The position numbers and the translations under genes are program-made. The notes beneath the pieces are model-generated. The model was not told where the DNA came from and ran no database searches. It was given only the letters and a program-made list of their open reading frames with translations. A stretch of 64,000 nucleotides of DNA from Candidatus Paceibacterota bacterium. Lineage in GTDB: Bacteria > Actinomycetota > Actinomycetes > Nanopelagicales > Nanopelagicaceae. The stretch is from the NCBI GenBank assembly GCA_035530615.1, contig DATKUL010000003.1, positions 434,001 through 498,000 of the forward strand. Reading direction: 5' to 3'. This document shows, in pieces, positions 28,320 to 37,590 of the stretch (within the stretch, counting starts at the first letter, position 1; each line of letters opens with the position of its first letter).

Positions 28320-29414
28320 TCAATTCATCCGCTCTTCGGAGAGGATGGTCGCAACTTCGCGCCGCTGCGCATCGATCCGAGCATCAGGGCCTGCATAAAC
28401 GTGGTCGAACATAGATAGCGGATCCGGATCAGGGAGTTCGCGGCAACCCTCGCGCATCCGATCGGCAAGGGATGATGCCTCGCGGGCCAGTTCGGATTGC
28501 AACTCGTCATTGAGAAGACCCTTTGCCCGCAGAAGAATCCGCAGTCGCTCGATCGGATCGCGGCCACGCCATAATTCGTCGTCGGCACCATCGCGGTATT
28601 TCGTTGGATCATCCGATGTCGTGTGAGCACCCATTCGATAAGTGACGGCTTCGATCAGGGTCGGACCATGGCCCAACCGGGCACGATTGAGTGCCGCTGC
28701 GGTGACGGCATGGCAGGCAATGACATCGTTCCCATCCACACGCACCCCGGGCATACCGAATCCATTTGCCCGCCGGGCAAGCGGAATCAGACTCTGTCGC
28801 TTCGTCGGTTCAGAAATGGCCCACTGATTGTTCTGGCAGAAGAAAACCACTGGAGATTGATAGGCGGTGGCGAAGACGAAGGCTTCGTTGACATCGCCTT
28901 CACTCATGGCGCCATCACCAAAGTAGGCCACGACCGCTTGGTCTCGTCCTGTCTCGCCGGTGCCTACTCGCCCTGCGAGTCGAGCACCCATCGCATATCC
29001 AGTGGCGTGCAGAGCATGCGCCCCAATAATGATTTGATAGCCATAAAATCGATGCAGGTTCGCATTCCACGCTTGATGCATGGTTCCGCGCCAGAATCGG
29101 AGCATGTCAACCGGATCAACCCCGCGACACCATGCCACCCCATGCTCCCGATAGGTCGAGAAAGCGAAATCCTGGTCCTGCATTGCTCGAGCCGAGCCGA
29201 TCTGCGCGGCCTCCTGACCCAGAAGTGGTGCCCAGAGGCCGAGTTCCCCCTGTCTCTGCAGGGCTGTTGCTTGTTCGTCGAGTTGGCGAACCAAGACCAT
29301 GTCCCGATAGAGACCGGAAAGCGCGGCATCGTCCAACGTGGACCGGTATCGCGAGTCATCGATGATTGAGCCGGTGGTGTCAAGTAGTTGAACGATGGGA
29401 TCGAGCTGGTCCAT
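28320..29414 (-). CDS. bkdA: Branched-chain 2-oxoacid dehydrogenase E1 alpha subunit
   Basis: 364 residues from ATG 29414, chosen because GGAGG sits seven bases upstream and the product MDQLDPIVQLL has the normal family length. An upstream in-frame ATG at 29543 would add 43 residues but has no ribosome site and would leave only 20 bases to the divergent gene. The thiamine-diphosphate motif is GDGAMSEGDVNEAF followed by NNQWAIS; the substrate region HGVAWCRGV and the phosphorylation-loop-like YRMGAHTTSDDPTKYR are typical. First gene of the operon. Confidence 0.92.
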   Translation of the reverse strand: MDQLDPIVQLLDTTGSIIDDSRYRSTLDDAALSGLYRDMVLVRQLDEQATALQRQGELGLWAPLLGQEAAQIGSARAMQDQDFAFSTYREHGVAWCRGVDPVDMLRFWRGTMHQAWNANLHRFYGYQIIIGAHALHATGYAMGARLAGRVGTGETGRDQAVVAYFGDGAMSEGDVNEAFVFATAYQSPVVFFCQNNQWAISEPTKRQSLIPLARRANGFGMPGVRVDGNDVIACHAVTAAALNRARLGHGPTLIEAVTYRMGAHTTSDDPTKYRDGADDELWRGRDPIERLRILLRAKGLLNDELQSELAREASSLADRMREGCRELPDPDPLSMFDHVYAGPDARIDAQRREVATILSEERMN

Positions 29415-29512
29415 CGGGCCTCCGAGTACGAGCGTGCATGAGAGATGCTTCTCTGGGTCCGATGATGCTAACAATCGGTGTCCCATAGGTACAAGAGGAG
29501 TCGACAATGCTA

Positions 29513-29523
29513 GACCATTGGTC
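29513..29523. promoter_or_regulatory. Palindrome between bkd and its Lrp-type regulator
   Basis: GACCATTGGTC reads nearly the same on both strands and lies in the 149-base divergent gap. It is a candidate Lrp/AsnC half-site or promoter operator. Confidence 0.35.
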
Positions 29524-29563
29524 CATTTAATGTCAGAATTCATAGTCAACGAGAGGTGAAATC

Positions 29564-30067
29564 ATGTCCCTTGACCAAATTGACTGCGCCATCTTAGGCG
29601 AGCTCCTGAGCCGACCTCGGGCGGGGGTTCGCGATTACGCGCGCACGCTCGGACTCGCTCGCGGAACCGTGCAGGCCCGGCTCGATAGATTGACGGAACA
29701 AGGAGTCATTGGCGATTACGCACCCCAACTCAGTCACGCGGCTCTGGGATTCCCGGTTCTTGCCTTCGTACATATTCAGTTGCAACAGGGCAGTCTCGAG
29801 TCATTCGCCAAGGAGTTGGCAACTCTCGCCCAAGTCGTTGAGGCCCACTCGATGACTGGTGATGCCGACATGCTCTGCCGAGTAGTCGCGCGTGATAACC
29901 GAGATCTCGAGGCGGTTATTCAAGCAATCTTGCATCTTGAGGGCGTTGTCCGAACCCGCTCTGAAATTGCGCTGAGCGAGAGGGTCCCACGACGCGATGG
30001 CACTTTGCTGGAGGAGTTGGCTGGACTGGCACCAAGCAGCAGCCGGGCCGGCGTGCCCATCCACTAG
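29564..30067 (+). CDS. bkdR: Lrp/AsnC-family regulator of the bkd operon
   Basis: 167 residues. The N-terminal winged helix-turn-helix is LDQIDCAILGELLSRPRAGV then RDYARTLGLARGTVQARLDRL; the C-terminal RAM domain, which senses amino acids, spans about residues 65-145 (AFVHIQLQQGS, GDADMLCRVVARDN). GAGAGGTG lies just before the ATG. Its place divergent from bkdABC is the same as in other bacteria where BkdR activates the operon with branched-chain amino acids. Activation here is inferred. Confidence 0.87.
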   Translation: MSLDQIDCAILGELLSRPRAGVRDYARTLGLARGTVQARLDRLTEQGVIGDYAPQLSHAALGFPVLAFVHIQLQQGSLESFAKELATLAQVVEAHSMTGDADMLCRVVARDNRDLEAVIQAILHLEGVVRTRSEIALSERVPRRDGTLLEELAGLAPSSSRAGVPIH

Positions 30068-30384
30068 ATAGACAAGTTACAAATGCGATTCTTCGCTGTT
30101 CTGGTCTCTGAAAGTTGGAACTTTAGAAACACCAAAGCCACGAGATATTCTCTCGAGGCTTCAGGTTGCAACTCAATTGATAGAACACAAATACGGTATC
30201 GACGAAACAAGAGGACTGTAACACGCTATCTTTAATTGGCGCTCTAGTTATGTAGAAATTGTGTAACTACTTTAAGTAACTGGGTGCACGGAACCTGAAT
30301 TCCCTATAGGTGGATTTCTTTTTTGGACTTCGTGGTTTTCTCTCGTGTCAACGTCGGTCAAGTTATCTTTACGGGATTTCTTGA
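30068..30384. other. Gene-free stretch between bkdR and the AbiE locus
   Basis: 317 bases. One hairpin at 30135-30161 (AAGCCACGAGA/TCTCGAGGCTT, loop TATTC, one mismatch, no T run) could end bkdR transcription. I see no open frame worth calling, no tRNA and no clear array repeat. It is notably A/T-rich. Confidence 0.5.
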
Positions 30385-31262
30385 TTAGTGCCAGATAGAC
30401 CTGATTGGATCCCATGCGGAGGTCTCGTGCGCGCTACCGCGGAGAACGGGGTCAGTAAATTTGTAGATGGTATCCAAAAGCGCTCCGAAATCTTCTGGTA
30501 ATTCAAGTCGATCTTGTTTTATTCGCCAGTTTTCATATTTGGTTTGGCCAATTTGCGGGTAGTCCGAAAGCACTTCTCGGAGAGCTCCTATTTCTACTGT
30601 GCGGTGGGCTGATACAGCAGTGATTGATATCTTCATCTCTTTTAGCGATAAGGAATGAATTCGGATCAGATTATAGATATCTCCGAAGTCACGCCAACGA
30701 GTGCTGGCAGTTCCGCGCTGGATCGCCGTCACGACTTTCTCTGCCAAGACCATAGAAATTGGGTAGCCCAATAATTGAATTCGGATTGAGTCGTCTAATA
30801 TGCGCGGATAATCTACCTGGACTGCACCGGGTTCGATTGGACACCCACATTCACATCAATGTGAAATGTAATCTGTGCAGTCGCTATTCTTGCCATCATC
30901 GAAACTCGGACACCCGAGTACTCGTCGTCATCCCGAATAATGATAGCCGCAGCCGAGGCGACATCAAAGGTGATGCCATCGGCTTGGGAGATTGACGCGA
31001 TAGTGCAACATGCGTCTAGCACATATTTGGTTTCATTACTTGTACCAAGTGCAGCAAAATCAATATCACGGGTTGGCCTTCTTGCATTCCAGGCGGCGAG
31101 TAAAACTCCACCCTTGAGAACTAATTGTTCTCTAAATTGGCTCTGGGCAACTCGAGAGAGAAAGCCTTCCAATACGTATAACGTCATGAATTCTGCAGTG
31201 CTACGGCCCGCCTCTCGTGCCCGACGTTGTAACTCCCGATAAATCTCACCTTCGATTGTCAT
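30385..31262 (-). pseudogene. AbiEii-family nucleotidyltransferase toxin, frameshifted
   Basis: The first part (31262 to about 30843) encodes VLKGGVLLAAWNARRPTRDIDF, the GG...RDxD nucleotidyltransferase core, and ends in HIDVNVGV before running out of frame. Reading on one frame over gives DPIEPGAVQVDYPRIL and then, at 30771, GYPISMVLAEKVVTAIQRGT with TRWRDFGDIYNL, the family's C-terminal half. One missing base near 30839-30843 (GTGGGTGTCC where GTGGGTGATCC is expected) explains the break. Intact relatives are toxins of type IV systems that modify tRNA or block growth on phage infection. Here the toxin is probably dead, unless the break is a sequencing error or programmed shift. Confidence 0.8.
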
Positions 31263-31885
31263 GACAGTATTTCCAAAATAGTTTGAATTCGATAGCGTGC
31301 TCCGGGAAGTCTGCGAGCAACTTTCAAGAGATTGGCAGGGTGGTTCCCTGGTTTCCGTAACCAGCGACGGATTCCTTCAATTAATTCTGCCTGATCTAAA
31401 TTGGGATGACGAGCAAGGTCGGCGAGCGTTCGCTCTGGCGTGTAAATCCCAATAGTTAAATCTGTACCTGGAATTGGTCGCTCTCCTCTACCGAGGTTAA
31501 ATTTCTCTGGGTCGAATCTATGCCAAGCGACTGCCGCCGTTGTCCTTGGTGCCCATGCACCACGAGGAATTGCAATGTGCAATTTCTTGGGTATTGCATC
31601 CGACAGATCATGTTCCACTAAGGCTGATGTTAAACATATCGTTGCGCTAGGTGCCTTTGAGGCTATCTCCACCAAATCCAGGTCAACTGTGCTCTGTGCA
31701 TCTCGGCTATAGAGCCCACGAGCTATTGAATGAATGTCACCACGTTGAGCGAGGCGATGAAATGTGGAACTTGGAATTCCCTTCGCAAGGGCTTCGGCCG
31801 TAGTAAATAAGTATGGCAAATCAGCGATTGGCTTGGTTTTGCCGATTTCGCTTGCCTCTAGGCCCTTCGTCATGGGAGTAATCAT
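31259..31885 (-). CDS. AbiEi-family antitoxin/transcriptional regulator
   Basis: 208 residues from ATG 31885 (the frame is open upstream to 31927). N-terminal winged-helix region LFTTAEALAKGIPSSTFHRL at about residues 27-46; the central block ICLTSALVEHDLSD and AIPRGAWAPRT is characteristic of AbiEi. The family antitoxin represses its own operon and counters AbiEii. The stop overlaps the toxin start by four bases, as usual. An almost perfect inverted repeat with C/G-rich arms overlaps the start codon (31885-31907), consistent with autoregulation. Confidence 0.83.
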   Translation of the reverse strand: MITPMTKGLEASEIGKTKPIADLPYLFTTAEALAKGIPSSTFHRLAQRGDIHSIARGLYSRDAQSTVDLDLVEIASKAPSATICLTSALVEHDLSDAIPKKLHIAIPRGAWAPRTTAAVAWHRFDPEKFNLGRGERPIPGTDLTIGIYTPERTLADLARHPNLDQAELIEGIRRWLRKPGNHPANLLKVARRLPGARYRIQTILEILS

Positions 31886-31907
31886 ACACACCCCATAGGG
31901 GGGTGTA
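31885..31907. promoter_or_regulatory. Operator-like inverted repeat at the AbiE promoter
   Basis: TACACACCCC, three bases, GGGGGGTGTA: ten-base arms with one mismatch, starting at the antitoxin ATG. A promoter must lie within or just upstream, so binding would block transcription. Confidence 0.6.
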
Positions 31908-32038
31908 AAGGATTTCTCCAGCCCCAAGAGTTTAGGAAATAGGTTTATGAAGTCCCAGTTTCATTTTTGCTTATGTGGCCCTTGACGGCTCTGGAGAACA
32001 CACGACGGACCTTGCCAGGTTTGCCAATTAAATTCGTT

Positions 32039-32345
32039 CTAGCTTCTAAGGTTGTGCTCGGTCTCAATCAGGCGAACAGTGTGGCTCTCACCGCGCATCA
32101 CGATGGAGTGACTTATCGCTCCAAAACTTGTGTGTCGGACTCCGCGTAGTAGTTCGCCATCGGTAATTCCTGTGGCAGAGAGAAAAACATCCTCGGAGTT
32201 GATGAGATCGCGCGAGTTAAGAATTTTTGAAAGATCATGGCCCAGATCAATCGCCTTCTGTCGTTCTTCATCATCCCTCGGGGCAAGCTGACCCTGGATG
32301 GTGCTGCGTGCCGTGGGCGATTGAGGACAACAACGGTGAAGTAGG
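32039..32345 (-). pseudogene. Fragment of glpX with internal deletion
   Basis: The minus strand encodes [20 protein letters not shown] through [16 protein letters not shown], nearly identical in protein to the end of the intact glpX at 36628. In front of it, in another frame, is [11 protein letters not shown], also from glpX. About 55-60 codons between these two pieces are missing and the frame is broken. At the DNA level the copy differs from the intact gene at many silent sites, so it is not a fresh duplicate. It marks the left edge of the ots/sulfotransferase island. Confidence 0.88.
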
Positions 32346-32423
32346 GGATCGACCATATATTAGGCAACAAAAGAAATCGCAATTGGTGTTTGGATCGAGG
32401 ATTGATTCGAACGTTGCCGTAGT

Positions 32424-33212
32424 TCAAGTTCTTCTGGGGTTTGCCTCAATCGAAATATCGTGTAGAAATCGATTGACCCCACTACGTGATTTGAAATAAT
32501 ACTGCGCGAGACTTGTATCTGACTTGCCCACACGAAAAGTAATGCCGCTCCTAGCGAACACGCGAAAGGCATCTTCGTCGGTTAAGCTGTCACCGATATA
32601 GACCGCAACGGCGTTCCCTTTTCTGGTTAGGCCATATATGTGCTTCGCGCAACTGCCCTTTGTCCAACCGGACATGGGCGTAATTTCAAATGTAAATAGA
32701 TTGTCTAATACGCGAATGTTTCCGGCGCGAACAAAAATCTCTGATTTCTCCATTGCTCCGATGCGGAATTGTGTCGCCTGCATAGCAGAAAGCGAACGAT
32801 ATCCCAACGCGAGGCTAAAATCATTATCTTCTACTTCCAGTTCTGGGAACAGTTTGGCATATTGCAAAAGTAGACTTCGCGCCACTTCAAACGCTGCCAT
32901 GATATTTTCGGGGACCTCATAGCGATTTAGGCGGCCCTCTATTTTCCAGTCGAGCCCATGATTGCCTGCATATATAACATCGTTTAATCCCACCCGCTTC
33001 TCAATATCAGACACCGTACGGCCAGTTATTACCGCCACGGGCATCCTCTTGGCACAGGCCAGCAATGATCGGCGGGCAATCGGCGATATGCGTGCTTTTG
33101 AGGGGAGCTTTACGATAGGGGATAGAACGCCGTCAAAATCAAGCATGAGAACACAGCCGCGGCTTCGAATATCGGCGACGATCGAATCGATGTGGTTGGC
33201 CGCGTCCTTCAT
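32424..33212 (-). CDS. otsB: Trehalose-6-phosphate phosphatase
   Basis: 262 residues from ATG 33212, one base after the otsA stop (a TTG at 33221 lies inside otsA). It is a HAD-type phosphatase that turns trehalose-6-phosphate into trehalose. The nucleophile motif is LMLDFDGVLSPI (DxD), motif II is AVITGR, and motif IV is VYIGDSLTDEDAF. A cap domain lies between about residues 100 and 175. Usual size for bacterial OtsB. It is cotranscribed with the sensor-OtsA fusion upstream. Confidence 0.92.
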   Translation of the reverse strand: MKDAANHIDSIVADIRSRGCVLMLDFDGVLSPIVKLPSKARISPIARRSLLACAKRMPVAVITGRTVSDIEKRVGLNDVIYAGNHGLDWKIEGRLNRYEVPENIMAAFEVARSLLLQYAKLFPELEVEDNDFSLALGYRSLSAMQATQFRIGAMEKSEIFVRAGNIRVLDNLFTFEITPMSGWTKGSCAKHIYGLTRKGNAVAVYIGDSLTDEDAFRVFARSGITFRVGKSDTSLAQYYFKSRSGVNRFLHDISIEANPRRT

Positions 33213-33213
33213 A

Positions 33214-35421
33214 CTATTCAAGTTGCAAGAGGGCTTTGATAAGTTCGGCCGACCAGCGATAGATGTTGTAATCGCTGACAGAAGTGCGCATCATCCTCAT
33301 TCTACGTTGCTGCTCAGTTTTCGGCATCACCAAAGCGGTATGAATTGCGGCGGACGTTTCCTCGGCACTGTACGGATTGATGAGCAATGCGCCGTTCAAA
33401 TCGCGTGAAGCACCCGCGAACTGGCTCAATATCAACACGCCAGATTCATCATTTCGTGCAGCAGCGTATTCTTTTGTCACAAGGTTCATACCGTCGTGCA
33501 GGGATGTAATCAGGCAGACATTCGCAAGCTGGTAGAGGTGAATGAGATCATCATGCGAGTAGTTTCGCTTCTCAAGCACGATAGGCTTCCAGTTGTTTGT
33601 GCCAAATCTCTTGTTGATTCGTTCCGCTTCCTCGGTCACGCGGATTGCAAACTCCCGATATTGTGCAACGTTCTCGCGAGATGGCGATGCAATCTGAAGC
33701 AACGTGAGATTCTCCAAGTATGTGGGGTTGGCCTCAAGAAAAAACTCGACTCCCTTGAACCTCTCCAGTATTCCTTTCGTATAGTCAAGGCGATCCACGC
33801 CGAGCACTAGATGTTCGCCGCGAATGCCAAGCGCGTCGATCACTTTATTGCTGGGCTCGGGGTGACCCTCAGCACTACCTGGGAATGCAACTGATATGGG
33901 GAACGGCTTAATCGCAGTTTTATGTGCGCCCCGGAATATTGCAAATTGCTCATAGTCTATGCGCGACTCGATCTCATTACCGACCGTCTCGATGAAGTTA
34001 TTACAGTGCTGCTGCGTGTGAAATCCAACGAGATCCGCATTGAGCATGCCGCGTAGGAGTTCCCTCCGCCAAGGACATATATTGAATTGCGCTGCGGACG
34101 GCCAAGGTATGTGCCAGAAAATGGCAACTAGAGCATCTGGGCGGCTCTTTTTTATCATTTCCGGTACGAGCGCTAAATGATAATCTTGGACCAATACAAT
34201 CGGTCGCTCGATATTTCGTATTTCAACCAGCAAAGTCTTTGCGAACTTGGCATTAACTCTCTGGTATTCAGTCCAATCCTCCGAGCGAAAAAGTGGGCGC
34301 GTGTGAGCCATGAGGCACAAAGGCCAAAGCGCTTCATTAGAGAAACCGACGTAGTAACCTTCGATTTCTTTTTGGGTGAGCGAGACGCGCTTGAGGGTGT
34401 ATTTCGGTTCATCCGGCGGAACCATTATCTTGCCGTACTTATCAGCAACATCCATGTCCGCATTGCCGCTGCCGTGCGCTATCCATGTTCCACCGGAGGC
34501 TTCCATGACGGGCTCCAACGCGGTCACCACGCCTCCAGCTGGCACCGACCATTGAATTCTATTCTTCGTTTTATTGTGCACGTACGGTTCGCGGTTGGAA
34601 AGTACAAATATCGGTCGATCCTTGGCGTAGACTTTCATAAATTCTCGGAGTCGATCTTCTGTCCATGGAGAGTCGATCTTTTCGATACGCATTCGAGCTT
34701 CATCGCTCGCCGCCTGTCGTGCCCGCCGCAAACTTTTAGTAACTTTTGTGATTTCTCCCGCAAGGGGATTGAAGAAACTTGGACTTTGGATCGTATCGAT
34801 CTGGGAATCGCCTCTACGAAGAGCTTGTAGTGACTCAACCATTTGCGAGATTGCGTTAAGAAAGAACCAACGTACCAGGACAAAGATTGTGATGGCAAAA
34901 ATCAAAATTTGCAACAGCAGGCGAACAGCGTTACGCCGCCAGATATCACCCTTACTTATATCGATATACGTGGCATTCTGCGCGATTGCGAGAGCACCGA
35001 CAACGTTCCCGTCCATATGGAGAGGTGTGACGAGCACGTAGTAGGTGGAGTTGCTTCGGTGGACATAATCACCGATAGCCTGATCGCTATCCATCACCAT
35101 CGTAGTGAAAGTTGCATCCTCTGGAAGCGGCATATTCTTTGAGCCTGCCACTATCGCACCCATGTTATCAAAAACACTAAGACCAGCTAGACGTTCGCTG
35201 TGAGTGAATTTATCTATTACTTTTTGCACGTCGCTTGTCGTGCCGTAATTGTATGAGCGCTCGATACTTTCTGAAAGACTGTCGGCCAAAACTTCGGTGC
35301 GTGACTGAAGTCGTGAAGTTAGATCAAGTTGTTCGCGGTTTACCTGGTTTATAGTCAAAATACTCGCCAAGAGGCTCGCAAAAAGTATGGCCGCGGCAAC
35401 TATTACATAAACCTTTCTCAT
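33214..35421 (-). CDS. otsA: Membrane-anchored sensor/trehalose-6-phosphate synthase fusion
   Basis: 735 residues from ATG 35421, which has AAGGTG eight bases upstream (ATG 35445 also possible). Membrane helix 1 is at about residues 3-24 and helix 2 near 165-190. Between them lie about 140 residues predicted outside the membrane, resembling a small sensor domain (SVFDNMGAIVAGS, YYVLVTPLHMDGNVVGALAIAQ, as in PAS/Cache folds). A HAMP-like linker follows (about 190-245). The rest is a complete glycosyltransferase family 20 synthase: VPAGGVVTALEP, VQDYHLALVPEMI, FWHIPWPS, GVDRLDYTKGI and SLHDGMNLVTKEY. It makes trehalose-6-phosphate from UDP-glucose and glucose-6-phosphate. Ordinary OtsA is about 470-500 residues and soluble. 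Confidence 0.9.
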   Translation of the reverse strand: MRKVYVIVAAAILFASLLASILTINQVNREQLDLTSRLQSRTEVLADSLSESIERSYNYGTTSDVQKVIDKFTHSERLAGLSVFDNMGAIVAGSKNMPLPEDATFTTMVMDSDQAIGDYVHRSNSTYYVLVTPLHMDGNVVGALAIAQNATYIDISKGDIWRRNAVRLLLQILIFAITIFVLVRWFFLNAISQMVESLQALRRGDSQIDTIQSPSFFNPLAGEITKVTKSLRRARQAASDEARMRIEKIDSPWTEDRLREFMKVYAKDRPIFVLSNREPYVHNKTKNRIQWSVPAGGVVTALEPVMEASGGTWIAHGSGNADMDVADKYGKIMVPPDEPKYTLKRVSLTQKEIEGYYVGFSNEALWPLCLMAHTRPLFRSEDWTEYQRVNAKFAKTLLVEIRNIERPIVLVQDYHLALVPEMIKKSRPDALVAIFWHIPWPSAAQFNICPWRRELLRGMLNADLVGFHTQQHCNNFIETVGNEIESRIDYEQFAIFRGAHKTAIKPFPISVAFPGSAEGHPEPSNKVIDALGIRGEHLVLGVDRLDYTKGILERFKGVEFFLEANPTYLENLTLLQIASPSRENVAQYREFAIRVTEEAERINKRFGTNNWKPIVLEKRNYSHDDLIHLYQLANVCLITSLHDGMNLVTKEYAAARNDESGVLILSQFAGASRDLNGALLINPYSAEETSAAIHTALVMPKTEQQRRMRMMRTSVSDYNIYRWSAELIKALLQLE

Positions 35422-35576
35422 GGTTATCACCTTAGCAGTATTCATTATTTGAGTTTTAGCAATCCTCTAGTGGGGCCGTTCTCTCACATCGTTAAAGTAC
35501 GTCTGGCATCACTGAGAAGCAGCCTTTTTTAATAATAGGTGCTTGCATGAATTATTATGGCAATTTCTCTCTACTA

Positions 35577-36431
35577 TCAGTCGCCCCAACCAAAATCACT
35601 GCCTAGGAGTTCGCGAAGCCTCTTGTTGCTCTCGGCGTAAATGCCATGCAGGAATTCCCGATCTTCAACCGACATCTCAGGCGCTACCTCGACCATTCCG
35701 GTCTTTCGAATCCACTTCTGTTTTTTCGAATAACTAATAAACCAAAATCGATTGATCATCTTCACTAAGTACGGGTAACGACTCTTTTTGGCCGTATTAA
35801 CCTTGGGAAATTCGATCGTTCGACCTGATTCACCAATGACGTCCTTTCCAACTAGGAATCGCATTACCGGCGCAATGCATTTGTCGGGATCACTGGTCAT
35901 GGATTCAAAAGTTATGAATTTCATCTGCTCTAGTTTGAAAAATTCAAGCCAATGCTCAATCTGATCAATGTAGAAACCTCGCGAGACGACATCGCCGTAG
36001 GCCTTCCCAGCGAGAGCCTCATATTCTCTGATTGCTTGAGAAAAGGAGCGGCTCTTTGGAATAGCGCCAACGCGTAGACCATGTAGATACGCCGAAAGTG
36101 CCCTATCGGCAGGATTACGTAAGACCGTTACTAACTTAATCTGCGGGAAGAATTCCTTCACTCTTCCTGGCGCATCAATGCTCGGTAGATAACTCGGGCA
36201 CTTTTCGCCAATCAGCTGGCTCGGACGCCTACTCTTGAAATGCTCAAAATACTCGGGGAGGCCCTCGCCACTTCTAAATTCGGACTCTCTGTTCCAGAAA
36301 TGCAACTCACTGCTCGGTAGATAGAAATGATCTGGAAATTGATTGAAGTACTCTCTTAAACTGGTCGTACCGGCCTTCTGAGCGCCAATAATGAGAAAGT
36401 CTAACTTCCTATCCCTCGGCGAATTTTCCAC
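35577..36431 (-). CDS. Sulfotransferase family protein
   Basis: 284 residues from GTG 36431. PAPS-binding loop FLIIGAQKAGTTSLREYF near residues 12-29 and the 3'-phosphate site VLRNPADRALSAYLH near 104-118 are the two signatures of this family. The EKCPSYL block is also typical of the heparan-sulfate/N-deacetylase type. It would sulfate a sugar or surface polymer with PAPS; the acceptor is unknown. It is upstream of the ots genes on the same strand with its own TAGCCT box six bases before the GTG. The nearby trehalose genes may be linked in function, but that is a guess. Confidence 0.85.
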   Translation of the reverse strand: MENSPRDRKLDFLIIGAQKAGTTSLREYFNQFPDHFYLPSSELHFWNRESEFRSGEGLPEYFEHFKSRRPSQLIGEKCPSYLPSIDAPGRVKEFFPQIKLVTVLRNPADRALSAYLHGLRVGAIPKSRSFSQAIREYEALAGKAYGDVVSRGFYIDQIEHWLEFFKLEQMKFITFESMTSDPDKCIAPVMRFLVGKDVIGESGRTIEFPKVNTAKKSRYPYLVKMINRFWFISYSKKQKWIRKTGMVEVAPEMSVEDREFLHGIYAESNKRLRELLGSDFGWGD

Positions 36432-36437
36432 ATCAGC

Positions 36438-36443
36438 AGGCTA
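36438..36443 (-). promoter_or_regulatory. -10 box (TAGCCT) of the sulfotransferase gene
   Basis: Minus strand TAGCCT, GCTGAT, then GTG: leaderless arrangement. Confidence 0.5.
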
Positions 36444-36627
36444 CTAGTCGCCCAAAGAAGGATGAACCTAAAAACGCGTTAAAGATTGTGAAAATCTTGT
36501 GAATTCGCGCCACGCGTTTGTAGGTTGGAATGAACGTATGGTCCACTCCGTGAGATTTCTGCGAAAATAAATCCAATCTCAATCTAGTGATCTCGTCACA
36601 CGGGGTGAAGAAGTTGCTTTTCACGGC

Positions 36628-37590
36628 CTAACTTCTGAGATTATGTTCGGTTTCAATCAGACGGACTGTGTGGCTCTCACCGCGCATCACGATGGAGTGA
36701 CTTATTGCGCCGAAGCTTGTGTGGCGAACTCCGCGAAGTAATTCGCCATCAGTTATTCCTGTAGCAGAGAGAAAGACATCCTCGGAGTTGATGAGATCGC
36801 GCGAACTAAGAATCTTCGATAGATCGTGGCCGAGGTCAATCGCCTTCTGACGTTCTTCATCATCCTTGGGAGTGAGTTGGCCCTGGATTGTTCCACCTAA
36901 GCAGATCATTGCGGCTGCGGTAATAACGCCCTCTGGTGTTCCGCCTATCCCCATCAAAATATCTATACCGGTTCCTGGACGGGCTGCCTCAATGGCAGCG
37001 GCAACATCGCCATCTTGAATGAGTCGAATTCTTGCGCCGACATCGCGAAGTTCTTGCAGCAGTGCCGCGTGACGGGGTCGGTTTAGAACAACAACGGTAA
37101 CGTCGCTGACGGAAATCTTTTTTGCTTTCGCAACTCTTCGCACGTTCTCAGCTGGAGGGATCGTAATATCAATGACATCAGCGGCATCTGGGCCCGTAGC
37201 CATTTTATTCATATAGAAGACGGCTGATGGGTCATACATGGTGCCGCGAGGGGAGAGGGCGATGACGCTGATCGCTCCGCTCATTCCATTGGCGGTGAGT
37301 GACGTCCCATCAATGGGATCAACGGCGACATCGCACCGAGGACCCAAACCGTTGCCAACGGCTTCTCCATTGTGGAGCATCGGCGCATGATCTTTTTCGC
37401 CTTCGCCAATGACGACAATTCCAGCCATGTCAACGGTATTGATGCGTTCGCGCATGGCTTCTACCGCGGCATGGTCGGCAAGATTTTTATCTCCGCGACC
37501 CACCCAAGCCGAACCAGCGAGCGCGGCGGTTTCTGTTACGCGGACTAATTCGAGGGCTAGATTGCGGTCAGGATTTATGGTTGTCGACAT
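36628..37590 (-). CDS. glpX: Fructose-1,6-bisphosphatase class II
   Basis: 320 residues, normal length. It dephosphorylates fructose-1,6-bisphosphate in gluconeogenesis, with Mn or Mg. Blocks seen: [31 protein letters not shown] (metal-binding), [15 protein letters not shown] and [14 protein letters not shown]. Its promoter TAGATT at 37598-37603 lies in the end of murA with seven bases to the ATG. A broken partial copy is at 32039, on the other side of the ots island. Confidence 0.95.

Follow-up and report, generated by a model that had tools for sequence, protein, structure and literature searches.

Can a signal outside the cell set the synthesis of trehalose directly, through a single protein in which a membrane sensor is joined to the sugar synthase itself? 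The question is raised by a gene in the 64,000-nucleotide stretch of DNA analyzed here (the window), for which a preliminary description proposed a two-helix membrane region, an extracellular sensor-like loop and a HAMP-like linker ahead of a complete GT20 domain, paired with otsB. That description gave the interval 33214-35421, without a strand. The longest open reading frame is 33214-35445 on the minus strand, 743 aa from an ATG at 35445, and the plus-strand frame over the same region contains many stops. Because 91% of 55 relatives have a methionine at the position of a second ATG, at 35421, and because AAGGTGATAACC lies just upstream of it, this second ATG is the likely true start, in agreement with the interval first given. 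The features of the locus are collected in Table 1, and residues are numbered throughout from the upstream ATG at 35445 (743 aa).

Table 1. Features of the sensor-GT20 locus, in window coordinates.
Feature	Position	Strand	Residues	Basis
Sensor-GT20 fusion protein (probable trehalose-6-phosphate synthase with receptor N-terminus), 735 aa	33214..35421	-		ORF, Pfam, relatives' starts, predicted structure
TM1	35350..35406	-	14-32	hydrophobic segment; long helix in model
Extracytoplasmic single-Cache-like sensor domain	34930..35343	-	35-172	profile, fold, predicted structure
TM2	34861..34929	-	173-195 (hydrophobic segment 173-191)	model
HAMP-like linker	34711..34860	-	196-245	alignment, conservation, HAMP matches in relatives
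Helical stalk and conserved linker (EARMR...SPWT)	34660..34710	-	246-262	conservation, alignment, model
GT20 catalytic domain	33229..34611	-	279-739	Pfam, active-site residues, fold
otsB, trehalose-6-phosphate phosphatase	32424..33212	-		profile; starts one base past synthase stop
Second copy of the glpX 3' end, a remnant of the insertion	32039..32305	-		profile, comparison with congeners
Sulfotransferase upstream of synthase, possible operon member	35577..36431	-		profile
glpX (complete), chromosomal boundary of insert	36628..37590	-		profile, comparison with congeners

The N-terminal part of the protein has two hydrophobic segments enclosing ~138 residues. AlphaFold2 models of the full protein (55 sequences) and of the front part alone (40 sequences) have mean pLDDT values of 89 and 86, respectively; in the predicted order, a long TM1 helix leads into a five-strand PAS-like domain, from which the TM2 helix passes into the cytoplasm, followed by a second helix and then by the enzyme. 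As modeled, the outside domain has the single Cache (PAS-like) fold. Upon fold comparison, the WalK sensor ranks first for this domain (Z 15.1, rmsd 1.9 Å over 129 residues), followed by CitA, KinD, DctB and chemoreceptor sensors, and the front part as a whole aligns with the full-length WalK model over 250 residues (Foldseek 4.6e-13). A profile of the N-terminal part, built from 40 members, reaches the WalK sensor 5is1 with an E-value of 0.0016 and, more weakly, KinD and HAMP structures. Matches to sCache_3_2 are seen for 15 of 40 relatives (best 1.1e-8), while the window protein itself scores 20.0 bits against Pfam Cache_WalK, for which the cut-off is 27. A Halomonas histidine kinase also aligns with residues 10-255, position for position. 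This kinase, which is unannotated (L034:3905-5350) and has a TM-sensor-TM-HAMP order, is the sole plasmid match to the window N-terminus; the response-regulator gene lying 3' of it is apparently broken into two frames.

Beyond TM2, the family alignment follows the pattern RW....PI....EW...LR.G...PLA.E....A.SL..AR.AA.EEAR.R. Pfam HAMP (PF00672) has no match in the window protein's own sequence and is matched by 10 of 40 relatives (best 4e-5). The conserved E231 is present. Where HAMP usually has a proline, which 84% of relatives retain, the window copy has A198, and the DEIG.L core of HAMP mostly reads PLA.E in the family, with DELGKLADE retained in one member (L106). Following the linker, a profile search finds GT20 only, with the HisKA and HATPase_c domains absent. 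Because the profile and fold matches lead to WalK and to other kinase and chemoreceptor sensors, and because dozens of relatives from many phyla share the layout, the predicted sensor character of the N-terminal part is confirmed to be more than chance. The front part of the preliminary description is upheld in each of its elements: the two-helix region by the hydrophobic segments and the model, which predict a membrane-bound N-terminal part; the sensor-like loop by profile, structure prediction, fold comparison and conservation; and the HAMP-like linker before the enzyme by alignment, conservation and the HAMP matches in relatives.

The complete layout, from the two helices and outside sensor through the HAMP-like linker to GT20, recurs in 73 of the best 80 relatives from one scan of species genomes (with a full-length query, so that the list favors full-length matches); these span approximately the whole protein and have both membrane segments where expected. 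The full-length relatives are 36-67% identical to the window protein, and the best 80 come from Patescibacteria, Acidobacteriota, Omnitrophota, Elusimicrobiota, Nitrospirota, Methylomirabilota, Rokubacteria, Gemmatimonadota, Bacteroidota, Desulfuromonadaceae and Paucimonas. Three of the 80 are truncated by contig ends (L097, L103, L105) and one is without the second helix (L081). In a sample of 287 Patescibacteria genomes, 31 hold some match and 10 a full-length one (starting genome included); in a sample of 396 genomes from the phylum of the window, the matches listed, its own aside, all start at residue 243 or later. Viral contigs yield no relative with the layout, only one 91-residue piece of GT20, and the best plasmid matches are GT20 proteins with a single anchor helix. 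A recent local accident of fusion is ruled out by the spread across phyla and by the tree; judged from sequence, the sensor-GT20 fusion is an old and widespread family.

The reading that we favor, at a probability of roughly 60%, is that of a transmembrane receptor-enzyme in one piece, in which trehalose-6-phosphate synthesis is set by the outside domain through the HAMP-like stalk. HAMP linkers transmit sensor state to kinases. By analogy, an outside signal (an osmotic, solute or envelope state) would change the conformation of the single-Cache, WalK-type input domain held between the two membrane helices, and the HAMP-like linker and helical stalk would pass this change to the cytoplasmic GT20, with its activity going up or down as a result. 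The GT20 domain would convert UDP-glucose and glucose-6-phosphate to trehalose-6-phosphate, from which the coupled OtsB would then take off the phosphate. Conservation is lowest in the outside domain, at 1.82 bits, and reaches 2.01 in the HAMP-like part, 2.52 in the linker to the enzyme and 2.85-3.22 in the enzyme itself, a gradient that fits a drifting input combined with a constrained transmission element.

That the sensor is less conserved than the linker would also suit an N-terminal part that serves mainly as membrane anchor and dimer platform, its kinase-derived sensor fold no longer signaling, and that brings the making of trehalose to the membrane, perhaps close to an exporter or an envelope consumer. 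Loss of the HAMP proline in the window copy points the same way, and the natural deletions make anchoring a real rival: three relatives (L053, L090, L098) keep the enzyme, a membrane helix, the HAMP-like linker and the stalk with the outside domain absent, and an Aminobacter plasmid protein has its GT20 behind a single anchor helix. As the three relatives stand apart on the tree, the outside domain has been lost more than once, and these deletions, together with the Aminobacter protein, indicate that sensing is not indispensable in every lineage. On the other hand, the outside domain is complete in the majority of relatives, over many phyla and including genomes <1 Mb, which is costly for an anchor, and the HAMP-like linker and stalk are conserved, not eroded. 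We consider anchoring unlikely, if deserving of serious attention. As for the receptor-enzyme reading, we give slightly better than even odds to its extension to a class of one-component receptor-enzymes that is widespread and whose Cache-HAMP unit would gate a biosynthetic enzyme directly, bypassing kinases, second messengers and transcription.

The identity of the enzyme bears on a second alternative, in which the product is some glucoside phosphate other than trehalose-6-phosphate and the partner is an OtsB-like phosphatase. The proposed complete GT20 domain is borne out by a full-length Pfam match (PF00982; 380.2 bits versus a cut-off of 32.5, E 1.9e-113, profile positions 4-471 of 473) and by intact catalytic residues. 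Upon alignment with E. coli OtsA, taken from the K-12 genome, R285, G305, Y365, W374, D421, H445, R552, K557, R590, D651 and E659 are all kept; the catalytic and substrate-contact (glucose-6-phosphate, UDP) roles of these positions we take to be those of the OtsA structures. Foldseek with the GT20 part lands on the Candida, Mycobacterium and E. coli trehalose-6-phosphate synthases. The pairing with otsB holds as well, directly behind the synthase stop, and otsB is present in the loci of 55 of the 80 relatives, mostly directly downstream, with some loci cut short. The retention of the active-site residues and the otsB partner thus argue for trehalose-6-phosphate synthase activity. The exact product, probably trehalose-6-phosphate, is given as a prediction because the score falls below the NCBIfam cut-off of the OtsA equivalog TIGR02400 (434.4 versus 564.85 bits). 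The equivalog for glucosylglycerol-phosphate synthase is likewise not reached (310 versus a cut-off of 569). A different glucoside phosphate is nevertheless improbable: the OtsA score is far above that of the alternative, every residue mapped from E. coli OtsA as contacting glucose-6-phosphate or UDP is retained, and the partner exceeds the trehalose-phosphatase (T6PP) cut-off (103.6 versus 68.05). Within the family, a Kaiserbacteria relative (L041:5001-7205) has Ala in place of the near-invariant Arg of SNRE, giving SNAEPY, and the corresponding motif reads SSTEPY in L053:4827-6566; activity may be altered or lost in members with either motif.

HAMP-type linkers can act in both directions, so that GT20 might mainly sense sugar phosphates and have its state read out via the membrane part, but with the active site intact, otsB coupled and a readout partner not seen in the locus, such reverse signaling is very improbable.

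How did the gene come to this genome? None of 20 congener genomes contains GT20. On the GT20 tree, the window copy nests with a Kaiserbacteria copy and L035 (100/100), and this clade lies inside a 13-row Patescibacteria group (100/100). The fusion gene sits between the complete glpX and a second, diverged glpX 3' end (86% DNA identity). In one congener (G015), what corresponds to window positions 28900-30013 comes ~0.4 kb past the end of glpX; in another (G005), the sequence right after glpX matches window 30118-30195. From this comparison, ~6.4 kb has been inserted at the glpX 3' end, the insert corresponding to approximately 30200-36620 of the window. Because all 20 congeners are without GT20 and the gene lies in this insert, it was acquired horizontally; the transfer was presumably out of Patescibacteria, and the open-licence literature yielded no papers on transfer from Patescibacteria. 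An assembly chimera is ruled out by the three-contig, 100% complete genome and by the position of the gene within the glpX region, between native flanks. No integrase was recognized among the genes checked, and the glpX 3' end is a possible insertion hotspot. In the genus, TreY and TreS both stay below their family cut-offs, so the ability to make trehalose may be new to the host and have arrived with the insert. AbiEi/AbiEii-type toxin-antitoxin genes, with AbiEii possibly split into two frames, occupy 30385-31927, between the glpX remnant and the native flank. The sulfotransferase, for which sulfated trehalose is one speculative product, is ruled out as a conserved partner, being found beside none of the 80 relatives.

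Should the receptor-enzyme reading be true, an outside signal could switch trehalose production without any relay, and an outside cue would set the level of a stress protectant. This would make a compact osmotic or envelope stress switch, of note in Patescibacteria genomes of <1 Mb, and a broadly shared Cache-HAMP receptor acting on metabolism itself would extend the range of processes under transmembrane receptor control. The system would be directly assayable, with UDP release reporting the state of the sensor, and it offers a module for signal-controlled sugar synthesis.

Both parts of the protein, a Cache-HAMP-type receptor and GT20, are known; their join is undescribed. In the open-licence literature, we found no paper with this layout among those on trehalose synthase, OtsA or GT20 joined to HAMP, Cache or a sensor, and none on a Cache-HAMP receptor whose output is a biosynthetic enzyme. 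In the Geobacter genome paper (PMC2700814), the description of GSU2337 is limited to its "containing a domain" similar to the mycobacterial enzyme, so that family members may sit in databases under a plain enzyme name. The TPSP-GT-MSC operon of Thermoproteus tenax, for which a link between trehalose synthesis and the membrane stress response has been proposed (PMC3634074), encodes separate proteins, including a mechanosensitive channel, and, unlike the window protein, no synthase-fused sensor. The Aminobacter plasmid protein (WP_083948901) is a related GT20 with an N-terminal membrane helix, but this is a single anchor helix with no sensor domain, and its neighbors are different. The GT20 synthases E. 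coli OtsA (1GZ5), the Mycobacterium enzyme (5JIJ) and Candida Tps1 (5HUT) are alike in catalytic fold, active-site residues and otsB partner, but are soluble, whereas the window protein has a two-TM sensor module before the enzyme. In the Cache receptors of the 2016 survey, as in the window protein, an extracytoplasmic Cache domain lies between two TM helices; in the passages of the survey cited here, all Cache protein architectures had known signaling outputs, SMP_2 excepted, and the outputs named (kinases, chemoreceptors, c-di-GMP enzymes, cyclases and phosphatases) do not include a biosynthetic glycosyltransferase (PMC4822843). Finally, the sensor histidine kinase WalK (YycG) has both the TM-single Cache-TM-HAMP-type layout and the outside-domain fold in common with the window protein, but where its output is the kinase domains, the window protein has none of these and ends instead in a metabolic enzyme.
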